Positions 8,847 through 27,942 of a stretch of DNA of 64,000 nucleotides are shown piece by piece (position 1 is the stretch's first letter; each line of letters begins with the position of its first letter). The notes below the pieces were generated by a model, which worked only from the letters and a program-made list of their open reading frames with translations, had not been told where the DNA came from and made no database searches. The DNA comes from Candidatus Kuenenia stuttgartensis. Its GTDB lineage: Bacteria; Planctomycetota; Phycisphaerae; Phycisphaerales; SM1A02. Made by a program: the position numbers and the translations under genes. The stretch lies in contig CAMDMA010000001.1 in the NCBI GenBank assembly GCA_945902075.1, positions 62,001-126,000 of the forward strand. The letters are read 5' to 3'.

Positions 8847-9756
8847 GGGGCGAATCCTTCGCGGTTGCGGTGTTCGACCAGAGTCGCATGTCGTCAAACG
8901 CCTCTGGCGCACGAGCCTCCGCATGACCGTCCGCAAATCCTGCGACGATCTCGCCTCCATTTCGTCGGCTGAGATTTCCCCACGACGCGGGATCGTCCTC
9001 GTCGTACGACGCGGCCCAAGTCCGAGTATCAAAGAACGGCGAGCGAACCCGGAAGTAACCCTCCGAAACCGCACTCGCATCTCCGCCGGGCGTCCCCTCC
9101 TGCCCGCGTGCACTCCCGAAGACGACGAGCGACGCCGGCTGCGCGATCTCAGAGAGTCGGGTCACATAGAACTTCCCATAGAGACCGAGAAACGCGCTGC
9201 TGAACCCGCCATAGTTTTCGTCGCCGCCGACCCACACGCTATTGAGCCCGAAACTCGGAAACACGCTTGTTTGGTAGAGGTAGTTTGAGATATCGGTTGT
9301 CTCAAGTTCACGCAAGACGCGCTCGTGTTCACCGAGATAGAGCGCGTCAAAGTTATGGCCGATGTAGGGCGCGAGCCGCCAAACCCAGCGATTTGCCGTC
9401 ACTCCAATTGTCTGCGTCGCGATCGGATTTCGATCCGCGTCATACGCAGGAAGCCCAGATTTGTAGCCAGGAAGAACCGCGCCGTTCGAATCCTGTGCAT
9501 ATTGCTGCCACGCACCAACGAGTTCGCGCGCGGCCGCAATCTCGCGAGCGCGCTCACTCGCTGTTCTCATACGCGAAAGTACCGGGAGAAGCGCTGAGAG
9601 CACCAACGCAAGAATCGCGAGTACGACAAGGAGTTCGACGAGCGTGAAACCCGCGAACTCGACCAAACCCCGCAGTGGACAGCGTCGGACGCGTCGCGCC
9701 GGAGCGGTGAGAGGTGTTTCGGTGCGCAGGACGGACACGTGATCGTTGGGGTACAT
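8827..9756 (-). CDS. Type II secretion / DUF1559-like prepilin protein
   Basis: Type III prepilin leader AG|FTLVELLVVLAILALVLSALLPVLSRMR plus planctomycete-style tail with FADGHAE. Confidence 0.8.
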   Translation of the reverse strand: MYPNDHVSVLRTETPLTAPARRVRRCPLRGLVEFAGFTLVELLVVLAILALVLSALLPVLSRMRTASERAREIAAARELVGAWQQYAQDSNGAVLPGYKSGLPAYDADRNPIATQTIGVTANRWVWRLAPYIGHNFDALYLGEHERVLRELETTDISNYLYQTSVFPSFGLNSVWVGGDENYGGFSSAFLGLYGKFYVTRLSEIAQPASLVVFGSARGQEGTPGGDASAVSEGYFRVRSPFFDTRTWAASYDEDDPASWGNLSRRNGGEIVAGFADGHAEARAPEAFDDMRLWSNTATAKDSPLTPSGG

Positions 9757-11205: not shown

Positions 11206-11505
11206 TTATCCGAGCCGAGGGCTTGGCCGAGCATAGACCGGCGCGAGCCGACGCCGTACTCGCTCTGCGATGCTCTCAAGCATCCGCTCAACTTCCGTCG
11301 TTGCGATTTCAAGTACCGCGGCGATTTCATGCACCGTCAGTTCCTCGGTGTATCGCAGCATGAGCACGAGACGCTCGCGTCGCGTGAGTTCACGGGTGAG
11401 TTCGTTCACGATTGTGCCATGCCGAGTGGTAGGAATCGCCGAAGCCTCGCTGACGACTCCGCTCGCATGACCTAGGGCGACCTTCGCTGGATCCTTGCGC
11501 GTCAT
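11206..11505 (-). CDS. Small stand-alone sigma-70 region 4-like helix-turn-helix protein
   Basis: LTRRERLVLMLRYTEELTVHEIAAVLEIATTEVERMLESIAERVRRRL resembles sigma region 4; no region 2 in this ORF. Confidence 0.7.
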   Translation of the reverse strand: MTRKDPAKVALGHASGVVSEASAIPTTRHGTIVNELTRELTRRERLVLMLRYTEELTVHEIAAVLEIATTEVERMLESIAERVRRRLAPVYARPSPRLG

Positions 11506-11581
11506 AACCCGTCCCTTCTGCCGTCATCCATGACGACAGGGGGAGCATACACCGGAACAGACTTCGTGTGCCCGGCGAACA

Positions 11582-12829
11582 TCAACCGGCAATCACCTTC
11601 GCAACCGAGAAAAGCGGTAGAAGGAGCGCAATGGCAACTGCGCCAAGAACCGAGCCGAACACGAGAATGAGCACCGGCTCGATCAAACTTGTTGCCTGTT
11701 TCAGCGCTGTTTCGAGATCTTCCTCAGAGAAATCAGCCGCGCGCGCGAGCACCTCGGCAAGGCGACCAGTGCGCTCGCCCGCCGCGACCATCGACACCAC
11801 TGTTGGCGGCAGAAGAGTCTCCGCGCGGAGTGCCTCGACGAGCGAGCCGCCATCACGAAGTTTGAGATCAATCGCATCCCAAAACGCCAAGGCAATCGGA
11901 CTTCGAGAGAGGCCTCGACAGATCGCGATGGCGTCGAGGAGATGAATCCCGCTCGCAAGCAAGGTTCCCAATGTCCGGCACGACACCGCAACGAACGCCA
12001 GTCGTGCCAATCGCCCGATGACTGGCAGGCCAAAGCGCACACGATCGACGAATCCGGACCACGCCGATGAACGCACAAAGAACGAGATCGCAACGCATGC
12101 CACCACAAGCGCAAGCCCGATTGCAATGCCATTTGTTCGAATTGCATCACTCGCACCAAGCAAGATCTTCGTAGGAAGCGGAAGCTCAGCACCGCGATCA
12201 CTATAAATCTTTGCAAACCGTGGCAGTACGAACACTAAGAGTGCGACCACGACGACAACTCCGGCACCGAGCATGAAAAATGGATAGGTGGCTGCCGCGC
12301 GCAACTGTCGTGTGAGCCGATCGCTGCGCTGAAGGTGCTCCGCTGCGCGAAGGAGCATGGGACCAAGTTGACCCGTCGACTCCGCCGCGCGCGCGAGCGC
12401 GACAACGATCGTGGGAACCTCTCGTCCGCGCCGCGTAAATGCTGTTGAAAGTGGAATTCCCGACTCAACATCTGCCGCAAGTGCCGCGACGAAAGGTCGA
12501 AACTCAGGGCGTACGCCCTCCTGGGCTGCGGCTGCGAGCGCTTCCGAAATCGGGACTCCGGCGTCCGACATCGTCCCGAGGTGGCGACACAGTGCGGCGA
12601 GATCCCCTCGCCGTGCTCGGTTCGCACGCGATGTCGATGCGACGCGAGCGTCGGCAGCGATGGCTTCGTCGCGTCCGATCGCAAGTACCGTCTTTCCCTC
12701 ACTTCGTAACTTTCGTGCCACATCGTGCGGGGATGCTGCCGAAAGCGTACCGACCGACTCGCGACCATCCGCATCAATTGCGCGGTAAGCGAAAGTCGCA
12801 CGAGGTTCGTTTCGGACTTCAGTGGACAT
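11582..12829 (-). CDS. Type II secretion / type IV pilus inner-membrane platform protein GspF/PilC
   Basis: FAYRAIDADGRESVGTL N-terminus, two T2SSF domains, GERTGRLAEVLARAADFSEEDLETALKQATSLIEPVLILVFG. Confidence 0.92.
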   Translation of the reverse strand: MSTEVRNEPRATFAYRAIDADGRESVGTLSAASPHDVARKLRSEGKTVLAIGRDEAIAADARVASTSRANRARRGDLAALCRHLGTMSDAGVPISEALAAAAQEGVRPEFRPFVAALAADVESGIPLSTAFTRRGREVPTIVVALARAAESTGQLGPMLLRAAEHLQRSDRLTRQLRAAATYPFFMLGAGVVVVVALLVFVLPRFAKIYSDRGAELPLPTKILLGASDAIRTNGIAIGLALVVACVAISFFVRSSAWSGFVDRVRFGLPVIGRLARLAFVAVSCRTLGTLLASGIHLLDAIAICRGLSRSPIALAFWDAIDLKLRDGGSLVEALRAETLLPPTVVSMVAAGERTGRLAEVLARAADFSEEDLETALKQATSLIEPVLILVFGSVLGAVAIALLLPLFSVAKVIAG

Positions 12830-12856
12830 GGAGTCTCTCCCTGCGTGCGAAGCCCC

Positions 12857-14590
12857 TTAGGACGCAGTCGCCAGCACGACTTCCTCAAACGTGGTCTGCC
12901 CTTCTCGAACCTTCTCAAATCCATCTGCGCGCATCGCACGATGGCCAGCTGCACGCGCGGTCTGCGCCAGTTCTTGAAGCGAAGCCCCGCGAGCAACCGC
13001 GGCAGTGAAAGACTCGTCTGGGATAAGTAACTCGAAGACACCAATTCGACCGGCGAATCCGCTACCACGACATCGAGCACAACCAGCGCCGCGCGAAAAC
13101 ACGGAGCATGTTCCAGCGACAGCCTCAACTTCGGCGCGCACATGGGATTCAGGCTCGAAACTTTCACGACAATGTGGACAGATACGCCGCACAAGCCGCT
13201 GCGCCAACACACCGCGAACCACAGCAGCAACGAGATACGGCTCAACGCCGACATTCACGAGTCGCGTAATCGCACTGATGGAGTCGTTGGTGTGAAGCGT
13301 CGAAAATACAAGATGCCCCGTAAGCGCGGCCTGAACCGCGGTCGTCGCTGTCTCGTTATCGCGAATCTCACCAACCATCACAATATCTGGGTCTTGACGC
13401 AACATAGCTCGGAGTGCAGCTGCGAAGGTGAACCCCGCCCGCTCATTGACTTGAAACTGATTTACTCCGGGAAGCGTTGCTTCAATCGGATCCTCAACGG
13501 TCGAGATGTTGCGCTCCGCACCATTGAGGCTCGCGAGTACTGAGTACAGCGTCGTCGACTTTCCGCTTCCAGTCGGTCCGGTGACGAGCGCGATTCCATT
13601 TGGTCGCGCGATGACATCCTTCCAACGTTCGAGGATCTGCGTCCCCATGCCAAGTCGCTCGAGCGGCACAAGTGAGGCACGGCTGTCGATGATTCGGATG
13701 ACAACCTTTTCACCGTGGCGGCCTGGCATCGTCGAAACGCGCAAATCGATGGGACGACCCTCAAGCATCACATGAATGTCACCGTCTTGAGGAAGTCGGC
13801 GCTCGGAAATATCAAGCCCAGCCATGATCTTGATGCGACTCGCGATTGCAGCCGCCATTTTCCAAGGCGGATCGACTTTCTCAAACAGCCGACCGTCTAT
13901 GCGAAACCGGATCCGAAGTCGCCGATCACCAGGCTCGACATGAATGTCGCTTGCTCCCTCATGCACTGCACTCCACAAAAGCCAATTGACCGTCTTCACA
14001 ACTGGCGAATATCCCGCGAGATCACGCAGGTCTTCAATCTCTGCGACCTCACGTTCCACCACACTAAATGATTGCTCGTCCACATTTCCCACGATGTCGT
14101 CGATCACGAACACATTCGCCGCGGGCACGTACGCCTCAAGCGCCGCTCGGATCTCGCACGCCGTTGTCGCAACGATCTGTACCGACTTCGATGTACGGCG
14201 ACGGATTTCCTCGAAGAGATAGAGATTTGCAGGCTCCGCAACCGCTACGGTGAGCACGTCGCGAACAAGAAACAGCGGCAACACCAGGTGCTCAAGAAGA
14301 TATTCCCGAGGAAGAACTTCAAGCACCTTTGGATCAGCAATGCGCGCAATGTCGCGAGCAAACGGAATACCGTAGCTCTCTGCGACCGCTTCCATCACAT
14401 CGTGATCCGTGACGAAACCAAGTTCTACGAGCGTCTCTCCGAGCAGTCGGCGGTGCCCTTTCTCCTTCTGGTGCTCAAGCGCGTCGCCGAGTTGCTTTGG
14501 CGTGATGAGTCCGCGACCGATGAGCATCTCGCCAAGCTGAAGTCGCGGCAAGCGGTCAACAATTGCTTGATGTCGTGGGAGTGCTCCCAT
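12857..14590 (-). CDS. Type II secretion / type IV pilus assembly ATPase GspE/PilB with N-terminal MshEN-like domain
   Basis: LGEMLIGRGLITPKQLGDALEHQ...LGETLVELGFV; Walker A GPTGSGKSTTLY, Asp-box, RAMLRQDPDIVMVGEIRD, C..C zinc motifs. Confidence 0.95.
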   Translation of the reverse strand: MGALPRHQAIVDRLPRLQLGEMLIGRGLITPKQLGDALEHQKEKGHRRLLGETLVELGFVTDHDVMEAVAESYGIPFARDIARIADPKVLEVLPREYLLEHLVLPLFLVRDVLTVAVAEPANLYLFEEIRRRTSKSVQIVATTACEIRAALEAYVPAANVFVIDDIVGNVDEQSFSVVEREVAEIEDLRDLAGYSPVVKTVNWLLWSAVHEGASDIHVEPGDRRLRIRFRIDGRLFEKVDPPWKMAAAIASRIKIMAGLDISERRLPQDGDIHVMLEGRPIDLRVSTMPGRHGEKVVIRIIDSRASLVPLERLGMGTQILERWKDVIARPNGIALVTGPTGSGKSTTLYSVLASLNGAERNISTVEDPIEATLPGVNQFQVNERAGFTFAAALRAMLRQDPDIVMVGEIRDNETATTAVQAALTGHLVFSTLHTNDSISAITRLVNVGVEPYLVAAVVRGVLAQRLVRRICPHCRESFEPESHVRAEVEAVAGTCSVFSRGAGCARCRGSGFAGRIGVFELLIPDESFTAAVARGASLQELAQTARAAGHRAMRADGFEKVREGQTTFEEVVLATAS

Positions 14591-14593
14591 CGG

Positions 14594-14929
14594 TTACCTC
14601 ATACTCCGTGCTGCGAGTTCCACACTCTCCGCGCATTCAAAACGGTCAGAGAGCCGCGTCAGTCGGATTGCTTCACGCACTGCATGCTGCGGCGCAACGA
14701 GACGAAGCGCGCCACCGAGCCGTGTCGTTTCCTCAGCAAGCCAAAGAAGACACTCGAGCGCAGCACTGTCGGCGAGCGTGACATTCGCGACATCAAGCAC
14801 GATGCTTCGAGCGCCATGCACAAACCGATCGCTGACTGTTCGGCGGAGCGCATCGGCGCCGTCCGACGCAAACTCTCCGCTCGCAATAACCAGTGCGACG
14901 GGTCCGTGTTCCTCCCAGGAGATCTTCAT
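14594..14929 (-). CDS. STAS-domain protein (anti-sigma factor antagonist-like)
   Basis: ARSIVLDVANVTLADSAALECLLWLAEET resembles the SpoIIAA-type phospho-serine loop. Confidence 0.75.
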   Translation of the reverse strand: MKISWEEHGPVALVIASGEFASDGADALRRTVSDRFVHGARSIVLDVANVTLADSAALECLLWLAEETTRLGGALRLVAPQHAVREAIRLTRLSDRFECAESVELAARSMR

Positions 14930-16560
14930 GCTGCCTCCCCGAGTCTTCGGAGGTTTCGAATACCGATGCTGTCGATCGAAAGGGGCTCACGACTCGAAGC
15001 ATCAACGGCATCCAGGCTCGACGCATCACCCGATCCAGACGCAGCACAATCTTCCAAACCGACGTCATAGGTCGAGAGATCAAGTCGAAGAAAATGAGCC
15101 AAGAAAGTTGGATCAAACTGCGAGCCACCGAGCTTTGACATTTCGTTCAACACCTCGCTGCGACCGAGCTTCGCTCGGTAGGTTCGATTTGAACTCATCG
15201 CGTCAAATGTGTCCGCGATCGCAATGATGCGTGCAGCGACAGGAATTGTGTCGCCAGCCAATTCATGCGGGTACCCCCTGCCATCGAACCGCTCATGGTG
15301 ATGTAATACTCCATCAAGAACCGGTTCAAATCGCGGAATATCGCGGAGAATGCGCCACCCAATCACCGGGTGCTGCTTCACCTGACCGTACTCCTCATTC
15401 GTCAGCTTTCCTTGCTTTCGAAGCGCTGTTTCAGGCACACCAATCTTGCCAACATCATGGACGAGTCCAGAGATGTAAATATGCTTTACATCAGCCGCAG
15501 ACAAACCCGCTGCCATGGCAATCTGGCGGGAGAGAAGCGCGACGCGCTGAGAATGTCCACGGGTGTAGGGATCCTTCGCGTCAATGGCAGAGACGAGTGC
15601 GGAGAGGGCGCCAATGAACATGCGATCAAGATCGCGATAGAGCCGCGCATTATCGATAAATACGGACAGGTTTCCCGCTGCCGTTTCGACGAGTGTTCGT
15701 TCGCAATTTGACATCGCGCAGTCACCAACCCTCCGGTCACCAGCCGCGAGGACGCCGAAGTACTCGCCTTCGCGCCGTACGGGCGCAAGAACAAGATCGG
15801 TTCCCACAACCGCCGCGCTTTGAGGCGTTTGCACTGCGCCAAGTAGTTGCTCGGCAAGCGTGATATCCGCACCGCTCACGAGGAGTGACCCTGGTTCGAC
15901 ATCGAGTATTGCGGCAGCAGATCCATCGACGCGCAGCGCCGTCCATCGACATCCGAGGGTGTGCCGCACTTCATCAAGCGTGCGACGTGCGAATTCGCGG
16001 GGAGAAGTGCCGACCGCCATCTCATTTGAAAGCGAGTGGAGAAGGTGAAGTTCCTCCCAGGCCGTACTGAGTTGTGCACCAGCCTCGAGACCCGCGAGGC
16101 GCTCACTTTCGCTGCGAGCAAGTGCGCTCACAACATTGGCAAATCGGCCACTGGTGCGACGATCCCATGGCGGCAATGACCGCAACAGCGTTCGCGCGAT
16201 ACGTGCGTCAATGCCTGCGCGTTGCGCAAGGATATCCAGCGTTTCGCCTTCGATTCCCTCGTCAAGCAACGTCACTGCAACGAATCGTCCACCTGCGAGC
16301 AGCCTCGGGAGCCGTACAGGAACAACAAGCATCCCAAACATGGGCTCCGTCGCAGATTCGCTTCCAACAGATAAGCGCGCAACTGCCCTTGCAATAAAGC
16401 TGCGAGCGTAAGGCGACGCGCACAACGAGCGCATGAGAAACAGTGTGTCGGTTTCGAACGGATCACTCGCCACCGAATCCGCCGGTAGCAGCACACCGCC
16501 GACATCTCTGAGCGATAGCGCGAGTCCAGCGAGTCGATGCTCCGTGCTTTCGATCGTCAT
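14926..16560 (-). CDS. HD-GYP domain phosphodiesterase with GAF-like sensory region
   Basis: LVHDVGKIGVPE...HPVIGWRIL...LHHHERFDGRGYPHEL...ARIIAIADTFDAM: canonical HD-GYP motifs. Confidence 0.92.
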   Translation of the reverse strand: MTIESTEHRLAGLALSLRDVGGVLLPADSVASDPFETDTLFLMRSLCASPYARSFIARAVARLSVGSESATEPMFGMLVVPVRLPRLLAGGRFVAVTLLDEGIEGETLDILAQRAGIDARIARTLLRSLPPWDRRTSGRFANVVSALARSESERLAGLEAGAQLSTAWEELHLLHSLSNEMAVGTSPREFARRTLDEVRHTLGCRWTALRVDGSAAAILDVEPGSLLVSGADITLAEQLLGAVQTPQSAAVVGTDLVLAPVRREGEYFGVLAAGDRRVGDCAMSNCERTLVETAAGNLSVFIDNARLYRDLDRMFIGALSALVSAIDAKDPYTRGHSQRVALLSRQIAMAAGLSAADVKHIYISGLVHDVGKIGVPETALRKQGKLTNEEYGQVKQHPVIGWRILRDIPRFEPVLDGVLHHHERFDGRGYPHELAGDTIPVAARIIAIADTFDAMSSNRTYRAKLGRSEVLNEMSKLGGSQFDPTFLAHFLRLDLSTYDVGLEDCAASGSGDASSLDAVDASSREPLSIDSIGIRNLRRLGEAA

Positions 16561-16958
16561 GCCACACGAACCTTTCGTTCCAGCAGCGCCTCGACCTCTG
16601 ACAAGAGTGCACGCGGCGAGAATGGTTTGTGGACGACGCGAGCAATGTTGGCACTATCCGCCTCTCCTTCTCGAAGGAGATGCCCGCGCGCGGTGAGCAT
16701 GAGAATTGGAATGTGCAAAAGCTGCGGATCGGCAGCCATCGCGGTCGCCAACTCGAGCCCCGACATCGCGGGCATTTGAAGATCTGTCACGACCAAATCG
16801 ACCGGATGGTCCTTAAGTATCGCGAACGCTTCATCGCCATCGCTCGCGGCTTCAACTTCGAAACCAGCGTTACGCAGCTTCAAAGCAACGACCTGCACGA
16901 TGTGTGCCTCATCATCAACGACGAGGATGCGTGCGGTGTTGAATGTTTGATTCTGCAT
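16557..16958 (-). CDS. Response regulator receiver (REC) protein
   Basis: ILVVDDEAHIVQVVALKL...DLVVTDLQMPAMSG...ILMLTA...VHKPFSP. Confidence 0.95.
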   Translation of the reverse strand: MQNQTFNTARILVVDDEAHIVQVVALKLRNAGFEVEAASDGDEAFAILKDHPVDLVVTDLQMPAMSGLELATAMAADPQLLHIPILMLTARGHLLREGEADSANIARVVHKPFSPRALLSEVEALLERKVRVA

Positions 16959-16961
16959 GTT

Positions 16962-18326
16962 TCACGCTGCCTTTCGACCCACCTGCTCCATCGGGATCGC
17001 GAACCAAAAGCGCGATCCCTGACCCACTTCGGAATCAACCCCAATTTGACCGCCATGCATTGCTTCGACAATATTGCGACAGAGGTTGAGACCGAGTCCG
17101 GTACCTTTCGCAAACTTTTCGTGGGTATCGACTCGATAGAACTTGCCAAACAAACGCGGCATGGCGTGGACTGGCACACCAAGGCCGTTATCGCGCACAG
17201 AGACGACAACAGATCTCGCAAGGTTGTCGATGTCAATTTCGACTGCGACTCGTCCGCCATCCGGTGTGTACTTCAACGCATTGGAAAGAAGGTTGAGTAA
17301 GACCTGCTTCAATAGCCCCCGATCCGCTGAGACAGTCGCGCCTCGCACGGAGCGGGAAATCGAAAGGGCAATGTGTCGGCGATTGGCTTCACTCTGTTGT
17401 TCCGCGACGCATTCGGAAGAAAGCGCGGCAAGGTCGACATCTCCTAGGTCCGCGCGTGCCATGCCGCTTTCGATACGTTCGATATCAAGCATCTGATCAA
17501 CGAGTGCGACCAACCGATCCGTCTCCGTAAGAATGATCCGCGCAAACTCCACGCGTTGCGCATCATCTGAAACTTCGCAGTCAGCGAGCATTTCCGCGGA
17601 GGCGCGCAAGGAACTCAGTGGTGTGCGCAGTTCGTGATTTGCTTTGGCGACGAATTCGTCCTTGATGCGATCTGTCTCTCGCTCGACCCGTACATCGCGC
17701 ACAACAATCGATGCGAGCCGTTCTTCGCTCCCTCCGATGTTTGCGATGTGGATAACGACGGGCGTGAGCCCGGGATCACGTAACGCACACTCGATGCGGC
17801 GTCGCTCGGTTCCTCCGGCGGCGACGACACCAGTAACGGCCCGCATGACCATCGGTGGTAAGGATTCGATCGCATGTCGGGTGCCAGCGATTGCTGCGCG
17901 CTCGCCAAGCATGGCCCTCGCCGATGCATTCGCGAAGCGGGTTTCGCCATGAAGATCAACGAGTACGACCGCGTCGCCGAGCGCATCGAGCAATTTCGTT
18001 CGTTCGCCAGAACGAATTTCAATCGCCTTCGAGCGCAACACCTCGTCGTGAGCCAACGAAGATGTTGATGCGGCTCGCAATCCGTCCGATTCGGCTGCGC
18101 CCCTCGCGGTCGCGGTCGGTCCAAACATCAAGGTGCTCGCAGCTCCGATTGCAGCCCCAGCCACCGCCGTGAGCCACGGCTGGATCACCCCGTCGCTCAG
18201 CGCAGCAGCGATCCCTGCAAGGACCATCGACGCGCCAATAGCGACAATCGGAACACCTGATCGAACGATCTCCGGTTCCGCAGACGCGGCCGCATCACCC
18301 CGAGGATTTCGTTCAGTTTGAGTCAT
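16962..18326 (-). CDS. Membrane sensor histidine kinase (PAS + HisKA + HATPase)
   Basis: FVAKANHELRTPLSSLRASAEML; NLLSNALKYTPDGG; VRDNGLGVP; GTGLGLNLCRNIVEAMHGG; N-terminal TM helices. Confidence 0.95.
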   Translation of the reverse strand: MTQTERNPRGDAAASAEPEIVRSGVPIVAIGASMVLAGIAAALSDGVIQPWLTAVAGAAIGAASTLMFGPTATARGAAESDGLRAASTSSLAHDEVLRSKAIEIRSGERTKLLDALGDAVVLVDLHGETRFANASARAMLGERAAIAGTRHAIESLPPMVMRAVTGVVAAGGTERRRIECALRDPGLTPVVIHIANIGGSEERLASIVVRDVRVERETDRIKDEFVAKANHELRTPLSSLRASAEMLADCEVSDDAQRVEFARIILTETDRLVALVDQMLDIERIESGMARADLGDVDLAALSSECVAEQQSEANRRHIALSISRSVRGATVSADRGLLKQVLLNLLSNALKYTPDGGRVAVEIDIDNLARSVVVSVRDNGLGVPVHAMPRLFGKFYRVDTHEKFAKGTGLGLNLCRNIVEAMHGGQIGVDSEVGQGSRFWFAIPMEQVGRKAA

Positions 18327-18359
18327 GATGGAACGCCTCAGTTTCAGGCGCGAAGCCAG

Positions 18360-19577
18360 TCATTCCGCTTCCGCAACTGCGAAAGCGCGTCGGGCAATCG
18401 ACGAGTTTGGATCAAGTTTGAGTGCCTCAGCCATGATCTCAAGGCCCTCTTTCGACTTCCCGGCGTACTGCAGTGCGAGTCCAAGGGCAACAAGTGATTC
18501 GATACTTTTTGGTGCACGCACGACTGCGAGCCGGTGCCAGCGCACAGCTTCGTCGAATCGTCCATTGCGCTCCGCAACAATTCCACGCAGCGTGTATCCA
18601 GCTGCGTCGCTCGAGAGTAGTGCGACCAAACGGTCAGCCGCCTGCTCGGCCCGCGGGAGATCATTGCTTGCGACCGCAGATGTGGCGAGATCACGCCACG
18701 CCTCTGCATCTTCCGGATACGCGCGCGTTTGATCGGTAAATACCATTCGAGCTTCGCTCATCCGACCGAGCATCGCGAGAGAGCGACCTTCGTTTCGATA
18801 GACATCATTCGGAATCTCTTGCCTTCGGCCCGTGGTATCTCGAGCAGCAAGCGATCGTTGTCGACGCGCAGCATCGAGACAAGCCTGCCATTCACCCGCA
18901 CTGAAGTATGCCGAAACAAGCTTCTCCGCAAGAAGTGGCGCCTCTGCATCAATCACCAGGGCGCGTTCGTAACTTCGAGCAGCCGATGGGTAGTCCTGAT
19001 TGAGCATCGAGATCTCGCCGAGGAGTTCGTGCATCGCAGCGTTATGTTCGAAATGAGCAAGCTTGGGAAGAAGCAGCATTCGCGCATCATCAAGCCGTCG
19101 CTCCGCGATCATCACCTCCGCGGCGGCTAGAAAGTATGCCACTCGGTCGGGTGCTAGTTCTGCCGCCTTGGTGTAGTCCTCCACGGCTTTCGCACTCTCG
19201 CTCCAACGCTGATGGACAATGCCGCGGTAGTAATACGGATCTGCAAGTGTCGGATCGCATTCGATCGCCTTTGCAAATGCTTCGAGAGATCGATCAAGCC
19301 GCTTCGCCTCAAGCTCAATTCGGCCAAGGAGCGACCAATACCGTGCTTCCTTGTCGCTACGAGCAATTGCTGACCCAATCTCTTTCCGAGCTTTTTCAAT
19401 CTCGCCGGATTCGAATGCCTGCTGGGCTTGGTCATAATTGACAACACTCGTCGTGCGGCGAAAGCGCTCATCCGCCTCGCGCCGCGCCTCAAGTCCACTG
19501 GTTCGCGGCGCACATGCAGTTCCAACCCCAATAAGGAGTATGGTCGAAATCAAGGCAGTTGCAGTTTGCGTGCGCAT
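18360..19577 (-). CDS. TPR-repeat lipoprotein
   Basis: Lipobox VGTACAP; several TPR units, e.g. AFAKAIECDPTLADPYYYRGIVHQRW. Confidence 0.85.
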   Translation of the reverse strand: MRTQTATALISTILLIGVGTACAPRTSGLEARREADERFRRTTSVVNYDQAQQAFESGEIEKARKEIGSAIARSDKEARYWSLLGRIELEAKRLDRSLEAFAKAIECDPTLADPYYYRGIVHQRWSESAKAVEDYTKAAELAPDRVAYFLAAAEVMIAERRLDDARMLLLPKLAHFEHNAAMHELLGEISMLNQDYPSAARSYERALVIDAEAPLLAEKLVSAYFSAGEWQACLDAARRQRSLAARDTTGRRQEIPNDVYRNEGRSLAMLGRMSEARMVFTDQTRAYPEDAEAWRDLATSAVASNDLPRAEQAADRLVALLSSDAAGYTLRGIVAERNGRFDEAVRWHRLAVVRAPKSIESLVALGLALQYAGKSKEGLEIMAEALKLDPNSSIARRAFAVAEAE

Positions 19578-19666
19578 GGTGTTCCTTTGTGCAGAGACTC
19601 GAACGAAACCGCGCCCTCTTCGGGCGCGGCGTCGTGTGCAATAGTGTTTCGGCTTTTTTCAGCGGG

Positions 19667-21949
19667 TTATTCAGCGGGCGATTCCGAAATCATCGCGAAC
19701 CTCGACCAACACTGTTCGGTTATTGAATCGATGCTCCACGCGAACCACGTGAACGGACTGGTCGCAGTAGACACAGCTGAAAATTCCATCTCAGTTGGAG
19801 CCAGATCACCGATTGAATCGGTCGATTTGGACATTGCCTCGAACTCGGGACCGTTGTCCGACTCTGGGCCGTCCTCATCATTTGAAGAGGCTGTCACTAT
19901 CGGTGACTCGATCGATACTTCCGCGTTCGCGACAGCACGTGGCGTGGGAACAGCCGACTCGAGCGAAAGTTCGCGATTGGCAGTCGAAGTCAAATTGCTC
20001 GCAGTGTTCGACGGCATTTCGGGAACTGTGACCCCAATATTTTTCTCGACTGCGCCGCGATCAATCGTGGCTGCAGAGCCTTGCCCGGTCGCCGGCATTA
20101 CCGCTGGAGCATCCGAAGGCGCACCTTCGCCATCGTTCGGCAACGCTGAGTCCCGCGGCATGTCGAGCATTCGCTGCATCATGCTGCGTTCATAATTGAT
20201 GTCTGCCGCGCTTCCACCCGAGCGGAGTTCTTCGCGCATGCGCACCATTTCTGGCTGAACATGCGATAACCGAAGGGAGTTTTCGACATGGTGCAACGCA
20301 AGTGCGCGGTCACCTTTCGCAAGCGCATCGAGTGCCTTCTGGTTTTGCGCAGTCGTCAGGGTGTCACGAGACCAGGGGAGAAGCCCTTCACGCGCACCGA
20401 TCCGCACCGCCGATGCAAACTGCTCGGCTTCGTCGGACCAGATCTTTGCGATGTCATCCTTCACGATCGTCGGTGTCACAAGGAAGATGATCTCAGTCCG
20501 CTTTAGTGTGTCGTCATATCCCTTAAATGCGTCGCCGATGATCGGGACGTCACCAAGTCCAGGAACTTGGCGTCGATCGATCGTTGTCTTTTCCTTGAAG
20601 AGACCACCGAGCACAAGTGTCTGCCCACTTTTCACTCGGACGTTTGTCACGATTTCATTGGTATCTTCGCTCGGTACAGGAAGCGTCGATCCTTGCGAGT
20701 CGGTCAGCTGCTCGGTCTTCGCCTCGCTCAGACTCGGCGCAAGTTCCATTCGGATTGACCCATCTGACGAGATGAACGGCCGGAAGATGAGCTTGATACC
20801 TGAGTCAAGGAATTCGACGCTCTGCGTCGTTGAGGTCTGGGTCGTTGTGGACGTGAGGTATCCGACGCGCTTGCCGATGAGAATTTGCGCACGCTGGCGG
20901 TTGAGAGCCATCACGCGTGGGCGGGCAAGAACTGTCGTGTCCGTGACGCTGTCAAGCATCCGAAGAAACACGGCAACATCATCTGAAACAACACCAACCT
21001 TGATTGTTGAGTCTTGCTTGAGATCGGTGACTTGCGTGCTTGTCGAATTGGCGACGCCCTCCGTCTGATTCACTTTTCCGTCGAAAAGGTCCTGCGCACC
21101 AGACAACGGACTCGTCAGGCTCGCCATGTCAAGATTTCCGATGATCGATACGTCGACACCAAAGCCGTCTTTTTGATCAACGTCAGTGCTTACGATCGTT
21201 GCCTCGACGACAACTTGTGCTGGAGGCGTATCAATTTCCTTCAGCAGTTGCTCGATGGCCTTCAAATTCTCGGGATAGTCACTGACCACGAGCATTCCTT
21301 GAAACGCCCAGCTGTCTGTTCCCCCGTCAGTCGCGGAAGCCTGAAAGCCCTTATCGACATCACCTACGAACGAAACTTTGCCCGCCTCGGAGAGGATCGG
21401 CGCAATGAACTCCCCTGCATCCTTGGCATTCAAATACTCGAGAGGAAAATTTCGGCTCGTCTTCTTCATACGCGAGCGCGTGAGGTCATCCCACTCCTCG
21501 CGAGTGTAAATGTAGACAAAGTTTCCCGACTCTTCGAGAAAGAGGTCGTTCGAGCGAAGTAATACGTCGAGCGCCTCGACAACGGTGACATCAAAGAGAT
21601 TGGCTGTCACCGTTCCTGAGACGCCCTTCGATGCAACGATATTGCGTCGACTCTGCATCGACAGCATTTGCAGGGCCTGCAGAATGTCGGTGTCTTGAAA
21701 TTGCACCGTGAATGTTTCAGCAACTGGCTGCCCTTCGGTGGGCTTCATTTGTGCCGCACCCGTCGCTGCAGGCGTTGGAGGCGTAGGAGCTTGGGCGAAA
21801 ACGACGCTCGCGGCCGCGAGGGTCGCAATGAACGTGGCTCGATGAGAGAGCACCCTAAATCGTCGGCACATAGCGCGCGGGGCGGTGGTGTGTGGAGTGT
21901 TGTTCGTCATGGTGTGATTCGGCGTGGCATTCGGCGTGGTATTCATCAT
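19667..21949 (-). CDS. Secretin (GspD/PilQ family)
   Basis: STN/N-domain segment LQMLSMQSRRNIVASKGVSGTVTANL, secretin C-domain VKSGQTLVLGGLFKEKTTIDRRQVPGLGDVPIIGDAFKG, EIIFLVTPTIV. Confidence 0.92.
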   Translation of the reverse strand: MMNTTPNATPNHTMTNNTPHTTAPRAMCRRFRVLSHRATFIATLAAASVVFAQAPTPPTPAATGAAQMKPTEGQPVAETFTVQFQDTDILQALQMLSMQSRRNIVASKGVSGTVTANLFDVTVVEALDVLLRSNDLFLEESGNFVYIYTREEWDDLTRSRMKKTSRNFPLEYLNAKDAGEFIAPILSEAGKVSFVGDVDKGFQASATDGGTDSWAFQGMLVVSDYPENLKAIEQLLKEIDTPPAQVVVEATIVSTDVDQKDGFGVDVSIIGNLDMASLTSPLSGAQDLFDGKVNQTEGVANSTSTQVTDLKQDSTIKVGVVSDDVAVFLRMLDSVTDTTVLARPRVMALNRQRAQILIGKRVGYLTSTTTQTSTTQSVEFLDSGIKLIFRPFISSDGSIRMELAPSLSEAKTEQLTDSQGSTLPVPSEDTNEIVTNVRVKSGQTLVLGGLFKEKTTIDRRQVPGLGDVPIIGDAFKGYDDTLKRTEIIFLVTPTIVKDDIAKIWSDEAEQFASAVRIGAREGLLPWSRDTLTTAQNQKALDALAKGDRALALHHVENSLRLSHVQPEMVRMREELRSGGSAADINYERSMMQRMLDMPRDSALPNDGEGAPSDAPAVMPATGQGSAATIDRGAVEKNIGVTVPEMPSNTASNLTSTANRELSLESAVPTPRAVANAEVSIESPIVTASSNDEDGPESDNGPEFEAMSKSTDSIGDLAPTEMEFSAVSTATSPFTWFAWSIDSITEQCWSRFAMISESPAE

Positions 21950-21993
21950 GGCGTGTTCCGCATTCGCGCTTCATTCGCGCGTCACTCTGAAGT

Positions 21994-22617
21994 TCACTCG
22001 ACGCTCGATCTTGGACTCGTTGGAAATCCGCGTAGCCTCAATTCAAACCGCGCTCCGTCATGCTCGATCACCGCTGCACTCTCGAGAAGCTCGATGAGTA
22101 CGAACCGGACGCCGTCCGCACCTTCAAGTGCGTCGCCGACCCGATAGGTCCTCCCATCAATCACAGCTATGGACAGGCCACGCCCGGCTGACTGCAATCG
22201 GAACCGCTCCGCTGCGCGCCGCACCGTTTCAATCACTTCCAACCGTCGATCATCGGCCGTTGGAAGCTGTGCCTTCGGCTCTATCGCCGCAGCGACTGGA
22301 ACTGGTACTTGCGGAGTTGGATTGGGGAATGTGTAGGAGTCAATCCGGAACGGATCTGATCGAATGTCGTCGGTGACGACGAAACCTGAATCAAACTCAA
22401 CTGGTGGCGCATCGACAACCAACGTCTCCGTTGGATCGTCTGCAATCGCGGTCTTCGGGAGGCTCGTCAAGATGCGAATTCGTGCCCACAGAAGAAGTCC
22501 CGCGGGCTTCACCCACGCGACAACCGCAAAGACGGTGAGTAACGCGATCGCGCTCCGCCGACTGCGAAACCAACTTACTTTTGCGGTCACTCGAGCATTG
22601 CCTGCTTCAGTTTTCAT
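21994..22617 (-). CDS. Bitopic membrane protein, candidate PilP/GspC-like component
   Basis: Single N-terminal TM; GLSIAVIDGRTYRVGDALEGADGVRFVLIELLESAAVIEHDGARFELRL resembles PilP/GspC beta domain; position after PilO-like gene. Confidence 0.55.
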   Translation of the reverse strand: MKTEAGNARVTAKVSWFRSRRSAIALLTVFAVVAWVKPAGLLLWARIRILTSLPKTAIADDPTETLVVDAPPVEFDSGFVVTDDIRSDPFRIDSYTFPNPTPQVPVPVAAAIEPKAQLPTADDRRLEVIETVRRAAERFRLQSAGRGLSIAVIDGRTYRVGDALEGADGVRFVLIELLESAAVIEHDGARFELRLRGFPTSPRSSVE

Positions 22618-23222
22618 GGTTCCTCCGTGGCAGCGTCTCCGATCGGCGCACTCGCCGATCCATAGACAGCGTCTAATTCGATTCGCGCCTCAACGAAACC
22701 CGCAGGGCTCGATGACTTCGCATTGGGAGCTTGATCAGCCACACGCGAAATCTCGATCCTGATTGGGCGCACAAGCTTTCGATCACCCTCTGCACGCGCG
22801 AGAATTTCCATAACGCGCGCAAAACTCGCTGTCATTTCAACAGTGACTGGAACTGCGCTGTAGCCGCTTGCCGACGGCATCGCGGGGACGACATCGCCTG
22901 CCACAATAGTTTGCGTCCCCACATCAGGACCAGCACCAATTGCAAGCATGCGCATCAGTGCGCCCTGATCTGCTTCCGAGGGAATATTGCGAAGCACCTG
23001 GCGCGATGCGACGCGCGCAGACTCCACCACCGCTCGCACCGCATCTCGTTCTCTTGTGAGTGTGTCAAATTGGGAGGCGCGCGAAAGCAGCCGACCTGAC
23101 TCGACTGCGCGAACCTCCGCACGCGTCCATGCGGGATATACGCTGAAACCACCAACCGCTCCGAACATCATCAACGCAGCCGCAAAGACGGAGAGTGACG
23201 CAGTTGATGGTCGACCACGCAT
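22614..23222 (-). CDS. PilO/GspM-like protein
   Basis: N-terminal TM plus coiled-coil; gene order PilM-N-O. Start taken at MRGRPSTASL; ORF is open to 23291. Confidence 0.6.
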   Translation of the reverse strand: MRGRPSTASLSVFAAALMMFGAVGGFSVYPAWTRAEVRAVESGRLLSRASQFDTLTRERDAVRAVVESARVASRQVLRNIPSEADQGALMRMLAIGAGPDVGTQTIVAGDVVPAMPSASGYSAVPVTVEMTASFARVMEILARAEGDRKLVRPIRIEISRVADQAPNAKSSSPAGFVEARIELDAVYGSASAPIGDAATEEP

Positions 23223-23230
23223 AAAACTCT

Positions 23231-23902
23231 TCACTTCGTACCTCCCGCTTGCTCGTCCGTAGATGCGCCTGCGATAACGGGAAGCTTCCATCGCCGATCA
23301 AGGTCGACCGTGAAAGTCACCCGGAATTCACGTGCATTTCGCCCAAGAAACTCACGACTTCGGCTCGATTCAAGGCTGACCTTTGAGACCGGCGCAAGAC
23401 CACCAAGCGCATCGACAATCGCACCAACATCTGACTCATCTGCCGCGATCCCGGATATTTCACCGCGTAGTTCGCGTGGCGCATCATTCTCTTTGCCGCT
23501 GCGTCGCACCTTCCGATTTGTCCCCTGCACATTTGCGTATTCGAGACCAATGCGCTCGAGAAGCGCGCCGCGCGGAAGACTCGAAGCAATCGCCTGTACG
23601 ACGCCACTCGCCGGGATCGGTACGCCGATCTTTCGTTGAACATCAAGTTTGGCTTGAATGTCAGACTGCTCATTCGCGAGTTGGGTGAGCTCCTGTTCAA
23701 TGGCGACAACTGGTGCACCCGACTGCTGCGCACCCTCGTAGAGAACTGTTGAATGCACATCGAGCCATCTTGCTCCTACGTACATCGCAAGCGTTGCCGC
23801 GAACAATCCCGATGCAGCGCGATAGATGCTGCGCGTCGATCGACCGCGGGAAACACGTGATGTTGTCGCTTGAGGAAGAAGTTCGAACGATCGATTGCTC
23901 AT
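23231..23902 (-). CDS. PilN/GspL-like protein
   Basis: MSNRSFELLP N-terminus, TM, coiled-coil, IASSLPRGALLERIGLEY fimbrial-assembly-like core; ATGA overlap with upstream PilM-like gene. Confidence 0.65.
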   Translation of the reverse strand: MSNRSFELLPQATTSRVSRGRSTRSIYRAASGLFAATLAMYVGARWLDVHSTVLYEGAQQSGAPVVAIEQELTQLANEQSDIQAKLDVQRKIGVPIPASGVVQAIASSLPRGALLERIGLEYANVQGTNRKVRRSGKENDAPRELRGEISGIAADESDVGAIVDALGGLAPVSKVSLESSRSREFLGRNAREFRVTFTVDLDRRWKLPVIAGASTDEQAGGTK

Positions 23903-25011
23903 GCGGCGACTCCATTCCCACGCGAATAACGGCCGCGACATGACAGCCCGTACGCGGCGATCCACGTGGCTGCGCCTTCGCGTTGAAAGTTGGCATCCGT
24001 TGCGGTTGCCGTTGGTAATTCCGCTTCAAACGCGCCGACGCTGGCGCGGCAGGTTTCCTCGATGATTCCGGCAAGCCTTGGTTCGAAACTATGCGGACCG
24101 GACAAAATGACCCTCGAAGGTTGGCCGCCACGAAACGTCACGCCGAAGTAGCGAAGACAGAGCGCGAGTTCGCCGGCGATCGCATCGATTGTCGGGCGCG
24201 TCGCTGCGAGCGCAGCCTCCTCCGCGACAGCATCGACGGTTGGTGCAACTCCGCGAATCGCCGCGATACGCCTTGCTCGAAGCACAGACGCAGAGCCGAG
24301 GGGGATGGCAAGCCGAGTCGACACTGCATGATCAAGCGCATCACCACCAAGTGCGATTTCGCGGCAAAAGGCGATTCGATCGCCACGAAGAACAAGCACT
24401 GTGGAACCAAAGTTTTCGATGTGAAGCACGGCGCGAATGTTTGTTAGGTCGGCATCGCGGCGTGTCCGACGTCCGAGCGCGCGGGCAATTGCTGCGAAGC
24501 GTGGTTCGACCGAAATTGGCTCGAAGCCCGCATCAATCAGTACGTCAAGCGCAGCCTCCAACTCAACAATGTTTGCTGAAACCACAAGCTGTTCTTCTCG
24601 TCCATCCGTCCCAGCTTGGGGAGCGCCAGTCGGCACAGAGTCTGCCACGATCGTTTCGCGCGGCATCGCGCTTCGCTCGGATGCTTCCCACGCGACCGCC
24701 TCGTGAAGGTCGTTCCCTACGAGTGCGGGAAGCCGCGCGACGTGCATCCGCGCAAATGGACTCGGTAGTCCGACAACAACCTCGCGACCCACGAATCGCT
24801 CGCGACGCATCGCGTTCGCAGCCGCTCGCGCACGCTCGACAAGATCTGCTGCAGGCTCGATACGCGCAGTTGTGCGAATCCTCGGTTCATCCACCCCAAG
24901 ACGCACCTGCATCGCGCGCGGCGTGTCAGCACCGAGATCAAGACCGATTGGACCAATGTTGTTCTGCCACGGCATTCGCCAACAGGGCATGGAAACCTCC
25001 GAGTCGCACAA
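23899..25011 (-). CDS. pilM: PilM-like actin-fold pilus assembly protein
   Basis: PIGLDLGADTPRAMQVRL, VVVGLPSPFARMHVARLP, AVLHIENFGSTVLVLRGDRIAFCREIALGGDALD. Confidence 0.8.
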   Translation of the reverse strand: MCDSEVSMPCWRMPWQNNIGPIGLDLGADTPRAMQVRLGVDEPRIRTTARIEPAADLVERARAAANAMRRERFVGREVVVGLPSPFARMHVARLPALVGNDLHEAVAWEASERSAMPRETIVADSVPTGAPQAGTDGREEQLVVSANIVELEAALDVLIDAGFEPISVEPRFAAIARALGRRTRRDADLTNIRAVLHIENFGSTVLVLRGDRIAFCREIALGGDALDHAVSTRLAIPLGSASVLRARRIAAIRGVAPTVDAVAEEAALAATRPTIDAIAGELALCLRYFGVTFRGGQPSRVILSGPHSFEPRLAGIIEETCRASVGAFEAELPTATATDANFQREGAATWIAAYGLSCRGRYSRGNGVAA

Positions 25012-25121
25012 GTGCGGCCTTTGGTGTCGTCGGCGTTTCGAGTGGCGCGCTTTGGCTCGGTTCTGCGGACCGTCGGGAATTCACCGGGATCTCACAGGTG
25101 TTCCGTCACGTCCATGCGCAG

Positions 25122-25721
25122 TTACTGCGCGTTTGCGAGCCGCATGACTCGAACCTTTCCCGTGAGCGGCGAAAGTTGGAGTCGATAGGCAGCATCCGGC
25201 GAGCGGAGGATCAAAGTGCCGCCAGTTCCTGGCAAACCTCCCGGTGCGACCGTGCCTCCGAGTTCATCGAAAGTAATGCTCCTCCCGCCGCTATCGATAC
25301 TCACGCCCTCAACACGAACGCTCGCGTAGCGACCGTCGTTGGAGAGATTCGTCATATACGCACCAGCTGTGGAACCACCACCGAGTGGATCATGGAGATA
25401 GTCGGCGGTTGCCGCGTCAAATGGCTCAGTGAGCGCATCCTCACTCACGCGAATCAGGCACCAGCCGCTTCCATCCGCGAAGAAATGCACACGACGGAAT
25501 CCTTGATTCGCGAGCGCATCACTCTGCGCAAAGGAAATATCAGAGATCAGCGCGCGCACCGCGGCTTGCGTGTCGAAATCTCCACGACCACTCATCGATG
25601 GAATGAGAATCGCCGCAGCGAGCCCAAGGATCGAGACGACAATTAGAACCTCAATGAGCGTATACGCGCGGCGAATCGCATGAATGGAAGTGTGGCATGG
25701 TCGCGTCATATGTATCGACAC
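25122..25721 (-). CDS. Pseudopilin (GspH-like)
   Basis: Prepilin signal RRAYTLIEVLIVVSILGLAAAILIPSM. Confidence 0.8.
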   Translation of the reverse strand: MSIHMTRPCHTSIHAIRRAYTLIEVLIVVSILGLAAAILIPSMSGRGDFDTQAAVRALISDISFAQSDALANQGFRRVHFFADGSGWCLIRVSEDALTEPFDAATADYLHDPLGGGSTAGAYMTNLSNDGRYASVRVEGVSIDSGGRSITFDELGGTVAPGGLPGTGGTLILRSPDAAYRLQLSPLTGKVRVMRLANAQ

Positions 25722-26132
25722 TTACTCGTTTCGCATCGCGTCGCGCAATTTGCTGTAGTCGATCTCGAGCTTGATCTTGTCGACTGGCATCTCATTAAAG
25801 TTTCCGATCGTGGTACGAACACGCCCACTCGTGAGCAGCGCGCGCAAGTCTGCAATCTCGCGACGAATCTCGCGCAACTCATTCACGAGTTCCGCGCGCT
25901 GGCGGCCGGAATCAAGCGCTTCTGATGTTCGATCGGCAATATCACTCTGCTGCATGGTGAGCGCGCTGGGTGCTGGTGGACCCGCGTCGGCTCGACCAAG
26001 GATTGGCGTTCCCGTAAGAAGAAGCGCCGCAACCCCGAGTCCACCAAACGCCGCAGCGGCGACGATGCGGAATCGGGTCCCGGAGCGGTTCGGCGGTTGG
26101 ATTGGTCGATCAGTGTTCGCGTTGAATTTCAT
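25722..26132 (-). CDS. Hypothetical membrane protein with coiled-coil, within pilus cluster
   Basis: MKFNANTDRPIQPPN start chosen; TM AAAAFGGLGVAALLLTG; helix ELREIRREIADLRALL. Confidence 0.6.
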   Translation of the reverse strand: MKFNANTDRPIQPPNRSGTRFRIVAAAAFGGLGVAALLLTGTPILGRADAGPPAPSALTMQQSDIADRTSEALDSGRQRAELVNELREIRREIADLRALLTSGRVRTTIGNFNEMPVDKIKLEIDYSKLRDAMRNE

Positions 26133-26261
26133 GGTTTTCCCCACGTCTTCTATCGTCGCGCGCGAAGTCAAACTCCCGCGAGTCATGGCGAATACGACGA
26201 ATCCCGCGTCAAGAGACCTGCTTCATCGAAACACTTGCTGCAGGCGCTGCGATCCGCACGC

Positions 26262-26654
26262 TCACCATGTTGGTGCTTCAGCAATGAGATCGGTATCGAC
26301 ACCGGCGTACAAAATGGTCAGCCTTGACCCATCCCAATTCCAGGAGTAGCCCTTCGGAAGTGTTGGATCGCGCTGAAGAAGCGGTTGCTGGCCGGCGTCC
26401 GGAGAAGTCATCGCTTCCCAGAGCGCATCGGTTCCATCCGCACCGCTCGCGATCGGCGTCACGCCTCCATGCCGAAGCCTGTACATCTCAATTTGGCCTC
26501 GGACCGCCGACAACTGCGATCGCGCAGCACTCGTCGTCGCTTCCGACATGAACCCCGTCATGTTGGGCACCACCAACGCGGCAAGGATGCCGAGGATGAT
26601 GACGACGGTCAGAATCTCGATGAGCGTGAAGCCGCGGCGAACTTTTTGAGTCAT
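26262..26654 (-). CDS. Pseudopilin (GspG-like)
   Basis: MTQKVRRG|FTLIEILTVVIILGILAALVVPNMTGF. Confidence 0.88.
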   Translation of the reverse strand: MTQKVRRGFTLIEILTVVIILGILAALVVPNMTGFMSEATTSAARSQLSAVRGQIEMYRLRHGGVTPIASGADGTDALWEAMTSPDAGQQPLLQRDPTLPKGYSWNWDGSRLTILYAGVDTDLIAEAPTW

Positions 26655-26769
26655 GCGATGTGCTCGTCTTTTCAGCCGGGGACACGGCCGGTTTAAGGAG
26701 TCCTCACTCCAGTCAAGCAAGCGGGCCGCGCGAATTTCTCCGCGCGGCTCGTGAATTCGATTCAGCCAA

Positions 26770-27171
26770 TCACCAATTCTCGATCTCTGCAGCGGTGAGG
26801 CCCTCAGGCAGGGTGGCACCGGTGAAGGTCACGTAGATCGTCTCAATGTTCGGCGATGACGCGAGATCACCCCAGCTGAACTCGTAACCAGTCGGAAGAG
26901 TTGGAGTCTTCTGGAGGTACGGGTCTTCGCCATTCGGCGGCGTCAGCAGATCGTTGAAATCAACGGGCAGATTGCCGTTGTTGCGAACACGGAAGAGCTC
27001 AATCTGGCTGCGAACGGTCTGCAGCTGACTCTTCACGCTGCTCTCGGCAGCTTCCTGCGAAGCGTTCGTGAACTGTGGGATCACGATTGCGGCAAGAATG
27101 CCGAGAATCACGACGACGATGAGAATTTCGATAAGCGTAAATCCACGGCGAATCGAGCGCTTTGCGTGCAT
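26770..27171 (-). CDS. Pseudopilin (GspG-like), paralogue of the preceding gene
   Basis: MHAKRSIRRG|FTLIEILIVVVILGILAAIVIPQFTNAS. Confidence 0.9.
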   Translation of the reverse strand: MHAKRSIRRGFTLIEILIVVVILGILAAIVIPQFTNASQEAAESSVKSQLQTVRSQIELFRVRNNGNLPVDFNDLLTPPNGEDPYLQKTPTLPTGYEFSWGDLASSPNIETIYVTFTGATLPEGLTAAEIENW

Positions 27172-27567
27172 AGTTCGATGCTCCTTACCTCGGATGACTG
27201 ACAGTGATAGGCAAACCGACCCGAGGAATTCGCTCGGTCGCCTTATAGCTTTCGTGTGGACCCACGCGGGCCCCTCGGAAATGCCGCCGCGGACTATTCG
27301 CCCGCGACGACGAGGCTCGAAATCCCTCCCTGAGGCCGCGCCCCTCCCTCGAAGCACGCAGCCAAGGATTTGAACACTGAAAGATCGGCGCACGAGCGCT
27401 TTCAAATCACCTCATGACGCGATTCACCTGTAGGAAAGATGTCGATCCCCTTGCGTATCCCGCGTGGCCGTCACAGATCGACGTCGTGGGACTCGCACGA
27501 GCGTCCAACCGCCACATCGCACGCGCGATTGAGCGGAAAACGCAGCAGTACGACGTTGGGCTTCGCG

Positions 27568-27942
27568 TCAGAGAAAGTGCGCGCCATCGAAGCGAATCGC
27601 GATACGAAAGCGACCTTCACCGAAGTTATCGCAGCGCATGACGATTCCCGTCGCGGGGCGCCCGTTGGGATCGCTGAATCCCACGCTGACGCGCATGTTT
27701 TCTGCGACCGGCGTTATCGAATTTCCAGCGAGCCACCACGGCGAACCATCGAGCCCGTGAAGCTCGACAACCAAACCGAGCTCGTGTCCAAGCGAGAGAA
27801 TCGTCGCGTTGCCCGGAATGCGCCAACGCGGCGAAGTCCGGCGATCGAGCCGAAACTCTGAGCGAAGACGCCCACGGCCAGGCCAGTCAACGTTGCTGAG
27901 GATCCGCTCGAAGGAAGAGTGCGTCGCGGTCATGGTGTGCAT
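27568..27942 (-). CDS. Small PilZ-like domain protein
   Basis: RLDRRTSPRWRIPGNATILSLG...VSVGFSDPNGRPATGIVMRCDNFGEGRFRIAIRFDG; internal ATG at 27942 chosen over the 389-aa ORF start, whose N-terminus is low-complexity antisense of serC. Confidence 0.6.
   Translation of the reverse strand: MHTMTATHSSFERILSNVDWPGRGRLRSEFRLDRRTSPRWRIPGNATILSLGHELGLVVELHGLDGSPWWLAGNSITPVAENMRVSVGFSDPNGRPATGIVMRCDNFGEGRFRIAIRFDGAHFL

Follow-up and report, generated by a model that had tools for sequence, protein, structure and literature searches.

A predicted type IV filament locus with embedded histidine kinase, receiver, HD-GYP and STAS genes, and its possible gating by c-di-GMP

Can the motor of a type IV filament machine be gated locally by c-di-GMP, through signalling genes that lie inside its own gene cluster? 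Motor switching of pili and secretion systems is known mostly from proteobacteria and Thermus, and few Phycisphaerae have been cultured. The question is raised by a locus in the 64,000-nucleotide stretch of DNA analysed here (the window), where 18 minus-strand genes at 11206-27942 encode a type IV filament machine with a histidine kinase (HK), a receiver (REC), an HD-GYP protein and a STAS protein inside it. The genome that contains the window comprises 3.3 Mb, and its closest named relatives, which are Planctomycetota/Phycisphaerae MAGs, lead us to infer a host among the Phycisphaerae planctomycetes.

Gene content and type of the machine

The initial annotation described about 17 minus-strand genes; their order, strand and limits held, all are open reading frames, and the count is 18. 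In the direction of transcription, and with a further gene outside the annotated range given last, they are:

27568..27942, minus: PilZ-fold protein, 124 aa (PilZ match in 5 of 11 homologues; Foldseek hits to PilZ domains)
26770..27171, minus: GspG-like pseudopilin 1, 133 aa (N_methyl 34.3 bits; TIGR01710 GspG 62.4 bits, below cut-off)
26262..26654, minus: GspG-like pseudopilin 2, 130 aa (N_methyl 29.8 bits; TIGR01710 59.5 bits, below cut-off)
25722..26132, minus: small protein with one membrane segment (no Pfam match; profile matches in 34 loci)
25122..25709, minus: GspH/FimT-like minor pseudopilin, 195 aa (N_methyl 23.6 bits, GspH 20.6 bits)
23899..24990, minus: PilM-like actin-fold platform protein (profile of relatives against PilM 2ych, 149 bits, E 1.2e-42)
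23231..23902, minus: PilN-like protein (PilN 20.1 bits, below cut-off; four-base overlap with PilM)
22614..23222, minus: PilO-like protein (profile against PilO 3jc8, 44.5 bits, E 1e-10; 2rjz, E 1.9e-7)
21994..22617, minus: protein in the PilP/GspC position (position and four-base overlap with PilO; no family match)
19667..21949, minus: secretin (Secretin 140.7 bits; PilQ nearer than GspD)
18360..19577, minus: TPR protein with N-terminal Cys, lipoprotein-like, in a PilW/Tgl-like position (TPR_2 89.5 bits)
16962..18326, minus: histidine kinase (HisKA/HATPase_c 61/103 bits; weak PAS)
16557..16958, minus: stand-alone receiver (REC), 133 aa (Response_reg 86.3 bits)
14926..16560, minus: sensor-GAF-HD-GYP predicted phosphodiesterase, 544 aa (HD_5 133.2 bits)
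14594..14929, minus: single-domain STAS protein (STAS 48.5 bits; TIGR00377 53.0 against a cut-off of 53.45)
12857..14590, minus: GspE/PilB assembly ATPase with N-terminal MshEN (T2SSE 440.1 bits, MshEN 56.2 bits)
11582..12829, minus: GspF/PilC inner-membrane platform protein (T2SSF 177.5 bits)
11206..11505, minus: small sigma-70 region-4-like HTH protein (Sigma70_r4 28.9 bits)
8827..9756, minus, outside the annotated range: further pseudopilin-like gene (N_methyl 25.3 bits)

Judged by sequence, the locus is a type IV filament machine with a PilMNOP-type platform, a PilQ-like secretin, a GspE/GspF motor and GspG/GspH-like pseudopilins. Homologues of PilM, PilN, PilO, PilP, PilQ, PilB and PilC (PilP by position only) all lie at this one place. 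PilM and PilN fall below the Pfam cut-offs on their own, and PilM and PilO were identified by comparing profiles of their relatives with solved structures; as Pfam alone would miss PilM, PilO and the PilZ-like protein, profiles of relatives and fold searches were required. Family matches and profiles bear out the platform, secretin, TPR, pseudopilin and motor assignments made initially, except that PilN is weak and that the protein in the PilP position found no family match in Pfam or profile searches. The TPR protein adjoins the secretin in 54 loci, the small membrane protein keeps its position in most relatives, and 9 of the 15 loci with room for it have an extra pseudopilin no more than 4 kb from GspF. 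Next to the cluster, but encoded on the other strand (window 10130-11176, plus strand), a predicted secreted protein carries dockerin-like C-terminal repeats (DLDCDGIVGAADLSLLLSAWG), with a Pfam dockerin match below the cut-off.

The machine resembles a type IVa pilus in its platform, secretin, motor and pseudopilins, and in that PilM and PilN are separate, but it reaches no NCBIfam cut-off for PilB or PilQ and its locus contains no PilT retraction ATPase; three PilT genes lie elsewhere in the genome (C10, C31 and C2). It resembles a type II secretion system (T2SS) in its GspG-like pseudopilins and in GspE and GspF scores nearer to that system, but the set of GspC, fused GspL and GspM is not found, PilM and PilN being separate, and the equivalog cut-offs for GspD, GspE and GspF are missed. 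The secretin scores 213 bits for PilQ (TIGR02515, cut-off 284.35) versus 189 bits for GspD (TIGR02517, cut-off 351), the motor ATPase 556 for PilB (cut-off 675.65) and 582.9 for GspE (cut-off 630.25), and GspF 306.6 (cut-off 424). The locus differs from both systems in that signalling genes sit between secretin and motor.

Other type IV filament loci of the same genome contain five pseudopilins, GspF, two GspE and PilT (C10:46000-65500, L262), or PilT, GspF and a 989-aa secretin frame (C31:20000-39000, L261); one ComEC is also present. Outside the window, contig C29 encodes a single secretin protein of 4.8 kaa (L260:129-14510, plus strand), in which 39 Secretin_N domains precede one secretin domain. 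An ordinary GspD has about three Secretin_N domains. Comparable frames are present in G024 (L264; 4848 aa, 35 Secretin_N domains) and G042 (L263; about 4973 aa, 32 Secretin_N domains), and long frames bearing a secretin recur across the order.

Conservation of the signalling genes beside the machine

From PilM to GspF the genes of the window are separated by -4, 8, -4, 44, 89, 33, 3, -4, -4, 3 and 27 bases, consistent with a single operon. The four-base PilM/PilN overlap is kept in 38/38 loci, that between the REC stop and the HD-GYP start in 33/40, and that between HD-GYP and STAS in 30/35. The latter two overlaps make the trio look like a co-translated, split RpfG, and translational coupling of REC, HD-GYP and STAS appears probable from them.

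Synteny across relatives, set beforehand as a test of the initial annotation, came out in its favour, with the signalling genes staying next to the machine across the class. For this comparison, the profiles of all 18 proteins were used to score the neighbourhood of the best secretin in each of about 60 relatives. Of the secretin loci, 49 extend at least 8.5 kb downstream, and 34 of these have HK, REC, HD-GYP, STAS, GspE and GspF all on the same strand; where the cassette is missing, PilM/N/O and GspE/GspF are mostly missing from that place too. At the level of the order, the 36 loci with at least three of PilM/N/O/P contain HD-GYP in 35 cases and all six genes in 32, against about 1.3 expected from random placement, a crude estimate in which shared ancestry is ignored. 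Dozens of genomes share the same gene order, so the arrangement is not a matter of chance.

At class level, an HD-GYP relative at E<=1e-90 is present in 80 of 120 genomes. Outside the order, machine and cassette occur together in 20 of 33 regions, the 20 representing 11 further families, a count conditional on an HD-GYP match because the regions were picked around such matches. An alignment-based HD-GYP scan of contigs, where a single-sequence scan gave no match, also led to the block in MAGs named as Phycisphaerae, Phycisphaerales or Sedimentisphaerales. In a rearranged form, shown by a single genus of the order and by several named MAGs (L211-L213, L139, L141, L142 and L159), REC-HDGYP is divergent from pseudopilin-PilP-PilN-PilM-GspF-GspE, and in some cases STAS and HK lie at the distal end. 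Some loci keep the machine with a reduced cassette: that of G049 lacks HK and REC, and that of G057 lacks HD-GYP and HK and retains REC-STAS-GspE-GspF. The PilZ-like gene, with 12 loci, is more local than the cassette, as is the sigma-region-4 gene, whose 14 loci are mainly those of the genus.

The cassette-machine linkage is thus strong among the genomes compared, and the occurrence of the four genes beside the machine throughout the class suggests that they probably control it. Each part is of a known kind, and the open-licence full-text literature searched describes no operon in which HK, REC, HD-GYP and STAS genes are embedded among those of a type IV filament machine. On MAG contigs from outside Planctomycetota, an HD-GYP of the same type directly precedes GspE-GspF in a Desulfobacterota (L188) and follows HK-REC in a Nitrospirae (L177). 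The Phycisphaerae cassette, with an HD-GYP of 65% identity, also lies on a public MAG contig (L131) whose label, Candidatus Kuenenia stuttgartiensis, is probably wrong.

Input proteins, eraser and candidate readers

The two-component input proposed initially is supported by intact phosphorylation residues and by class-wide synteny. The kinase has two N-terminal membrane segments with no sizeable periplasmic loop, followed by a weak PAS, HisKA and HATPase_c, and its H-box and N/G boxes are conserved among homologues, as are the phospho-Asp, Thr and Lys of REC, which has no output domain. The pairing of kinase and REC, like the partners of REC and STAS, is suggested by neighbourhood. The arrangement resembles RpfC/RpfG and other HK/REC-HD-GYP systems in grouping a kinase, a receiver and an HD-GYP phosphodiesterase. 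It departs from them in that receiver and HD-GYP are separate overlapping genes, not fused as in RpfG, that the HD-GYP protein has its own sensor and GAF domains, and that a STAS protein is added. Stand-alone receivers of the PilG/PilH type act on pilus motors. The REC described here is likewise a single domain tied to a pilus motor, but it accompanies a simple HK with no chemosensory array genes, and is coupled to HD-GYP and STAS. STAS keeps its fold and, in 41 of 42 aligned rows, an Asp-Ser phospho-site motif. A SpoIIAA-type anti-sigma antagonist would combine a STAS fold and a phosphorylatable Ser with a partner kinase; none of the 18 genes matches an RsbW/SpoIIAB-type kinase or a PP2C family.

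The eraser claimed for the locus, an HD-GYP enzyme predicted to destroy c-di-GMP, is likewise supported by synteny throughout the class and by intact catalytic residues. D330, H336, H368, D369, K372, H397, H421, H422, D450 and D453, invariant in 37 sequences, match PmGH D183, H189, H221, D222, K225, H250, H276, H277, D305 and D308, respectively; D183, H189, H221, D222, K225, H250, H276, H277 and D308 are essential in PmGH (PMC4159591). HDxGK, HHExxDGxGYP and the metal ligands are all kept except for PmGH E185, replaced by Y332. A Tyr at this position assigns the protein to the Y/F subfamily, for which a binuclear center is predicted, and the center is probably binuclear here too. By sequence, the best solved structure is the V. 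cholerae 3'3'-cGAMP phosphodiesterase V-cGAP3, with PmGH a close second; since the two are nearly tied, either c-di-GMP or 3'3'-cGAMP would fit as the putative substrate. The AF2 model (pLDDT 87) begins with an alpha/beta domain, which a long helix and then the GAF and HD-GYP domains follow, and best matches the GAF-HD-GYP protein PmGH (4mcw). The N-terminal domain (about residues 10-130) has no Pfam match and gave only GAF/PHY-like hits in the fold search.

Two candidate readers had been put forward, the MshEN domain of GspE and the PilZ-like protein, and their binding-residue alignments are mixed. MshEN is a clear family member (PF05157 56.2 bits, cut-off 23.1; c-di-GMP motif NF053729 58.4 bits, cut-off 38). 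Its motif I, QLGEMLIGRGLITPKQLGDALEHQ, departs from the consensus solely at position 1 (R1->Q), where most of 41 homologues have Gln or Pro; Gln24, Gly3, Leu6 and Leu21 are invariant in 41/41. In motif II, LLGETLVELGFVTDHDVMEAVAES, position 1 is Leu, positions 17 and 21 are Val and position 24 is Ser, and all 41 homologues are without the phosphate-contacting Gln24 of this motif. Some members of the rearranged loci have Arg at motif II position 1 of GspE. The Leu-for-Arg change was considered as a loss of binding and dropped, as GSPII-B of T. thermophilus PilF has the same Leu and a KD of 6 nM (PMC11731258). A reconstructed GSPII-A tolerates Ile at both 17 and 21 (PMC12002112). In GSPII-B, loss of either Gln (Gln-to-Glu) lowers affinity 77-158-fold, to MshE-like values, and loss of both abolishes binding (PMC11731258). 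The absence of Gln24 from motif II is therefore expected to weaken binding, not necessarily to abolish it, and c-di-GMP binding by GspE MshEN is possible, probably at lower affinity. Compared with the MshE, PilB and PilF receptors, this sequence-predicted MshEN shares a nearly complete motif I and, with PilF GSPII-B, Leu1 of motif II, but differs in the missing motif II Gln24.

The PilZ-like protein itself gives no Pfam match, and the top Foldseek hits of its model are the PilZ domains of BcsA, PA0012 and YcgR (prob 1.00, E 5e-3 to 6e-2). Its fold upholds the assignment and RxxxR is kept (RRTSPR), but DxSxxG is lost, being replaced within the genus by DGSPWW and similar sequences; it is intact in the relatives G027 and G036. 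Conservation of the protein is patchy, as it occurs only in the genus and in part of the family. Elsewhere in the genome there are three GGDEF proteins and two canonical PilZ matches; GGDEF proteins occur in all 61 genomes, and no cyclase lies within the locus.

Control of the machine and its alternatives

One scheme can join the observed gene content and order, the overlaps between genes, the class-wide conservation and the intact residues for catalysis and phosphorylation; in it the pairing of kinase and REC, the contacts among REC, HD-GYP and STAS, nucleotide binding by MshEN and the direction of the effect are presumed. A membrane or cytoplasmic cue would be sensed by the membrane kinase, which would phosphorylate the stand-alone REC. 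REC-P would dock on its co-translated HD-GYP partner, the two amounting to RpfG, a REC-HD-GYP fusion, in split form; together with the GAF and N-terminal sensor domains of the enzyme, REC-P would set c-di-GMP hydrolysis. STAS, co-translated with HD-GYP, would tether the enzyme to motor or platform, possibly under Ser phosphorylation, and MshEN of GspE would read c-di-GMP at the motor and turn filament assembly or secretion on or off. Gating of the machine by c-di-GMP is plausible, and we give this complete scheme, from operon-encoded HK-REC-HD-GYP-STAS to MshEN, an even chance. The loss of Gln24 from motif II and of DxSxxG from PilZ, the Gln or Pro found at motif I position 1 in most homologues, the cassette-poor loci (G049 and G057) and the lack of a local cyclase count against the scheme. 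Local gating, as first proposed, gains from the eraser and its linkage and is weakened by what appears to be at most one conserved local reader; it is a good hypothesis. A more specific version, in which REC, HD-GYP and STAS would form a previously undescribed, co-translated complex dedicated to gating a type IV filament machine by c-di-GMP, ancestral to Phycisphaerae and with related pairings in Desulfobacterota (L188) and Nitrospirae (L177), is held only tentatively.

The degeneracy of both MshEN motif II and PilZ would also suit control by protein contacts, with REC-P (CheY/PilG-like) and STAS acting on GspE, PilM or GspF, MshEN purely structural, and HD-GYP a side branch or scaffold. The conserved Asp-Ser of STAS, the REC devoid of an output domain and the retention of REC-STAS-GspE-GspF in G057 point the same way. 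However, the HD-GYP catalytic residues, needless for a mere scaffold, are invariant across the order, and MshEN motif I is almost whole, which makes such control rather unlikely. The flow of information might instead be outward: the filament or its platform would sense surface contact or load, HK-REC would relay the signal, and HD-GYP would lower c-di-GMP for cell-wide readers elsewhere. Since the genome has few GGDEF proteins, and two canonical PilZ matches, a single phosphodiesterase could dominate the c-di-GMP pool, and a kinase devoid of its own periplasmic domain could take its cue from the platform; but a global enzyme need not remain in the machine operon across a class, and MshEN sits in that same operon. 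We consider this unlikely.

All the comparisons share ancestry and synteny alone is no proof of regulation, so chance, or selection acting on expression alone, might have kept an ancestral operon together. Such a neighbourhood without function is highly improbable, given conservation across many families at an HD-GYP identity of about 32-42% outside the genus, the overlapping genes, and a rearranged form that re-associates the cassette with the machine. Under gating by c-di-GMP, REC, HD-GYP, STAS and the GspE N-domain would form a minimal set with which local control could be tested in vitro without host genetics. The locus thus offers candidate switches of a pilus or secretion motor that appear to be hard-wired into the operon of the machine throughout one class.
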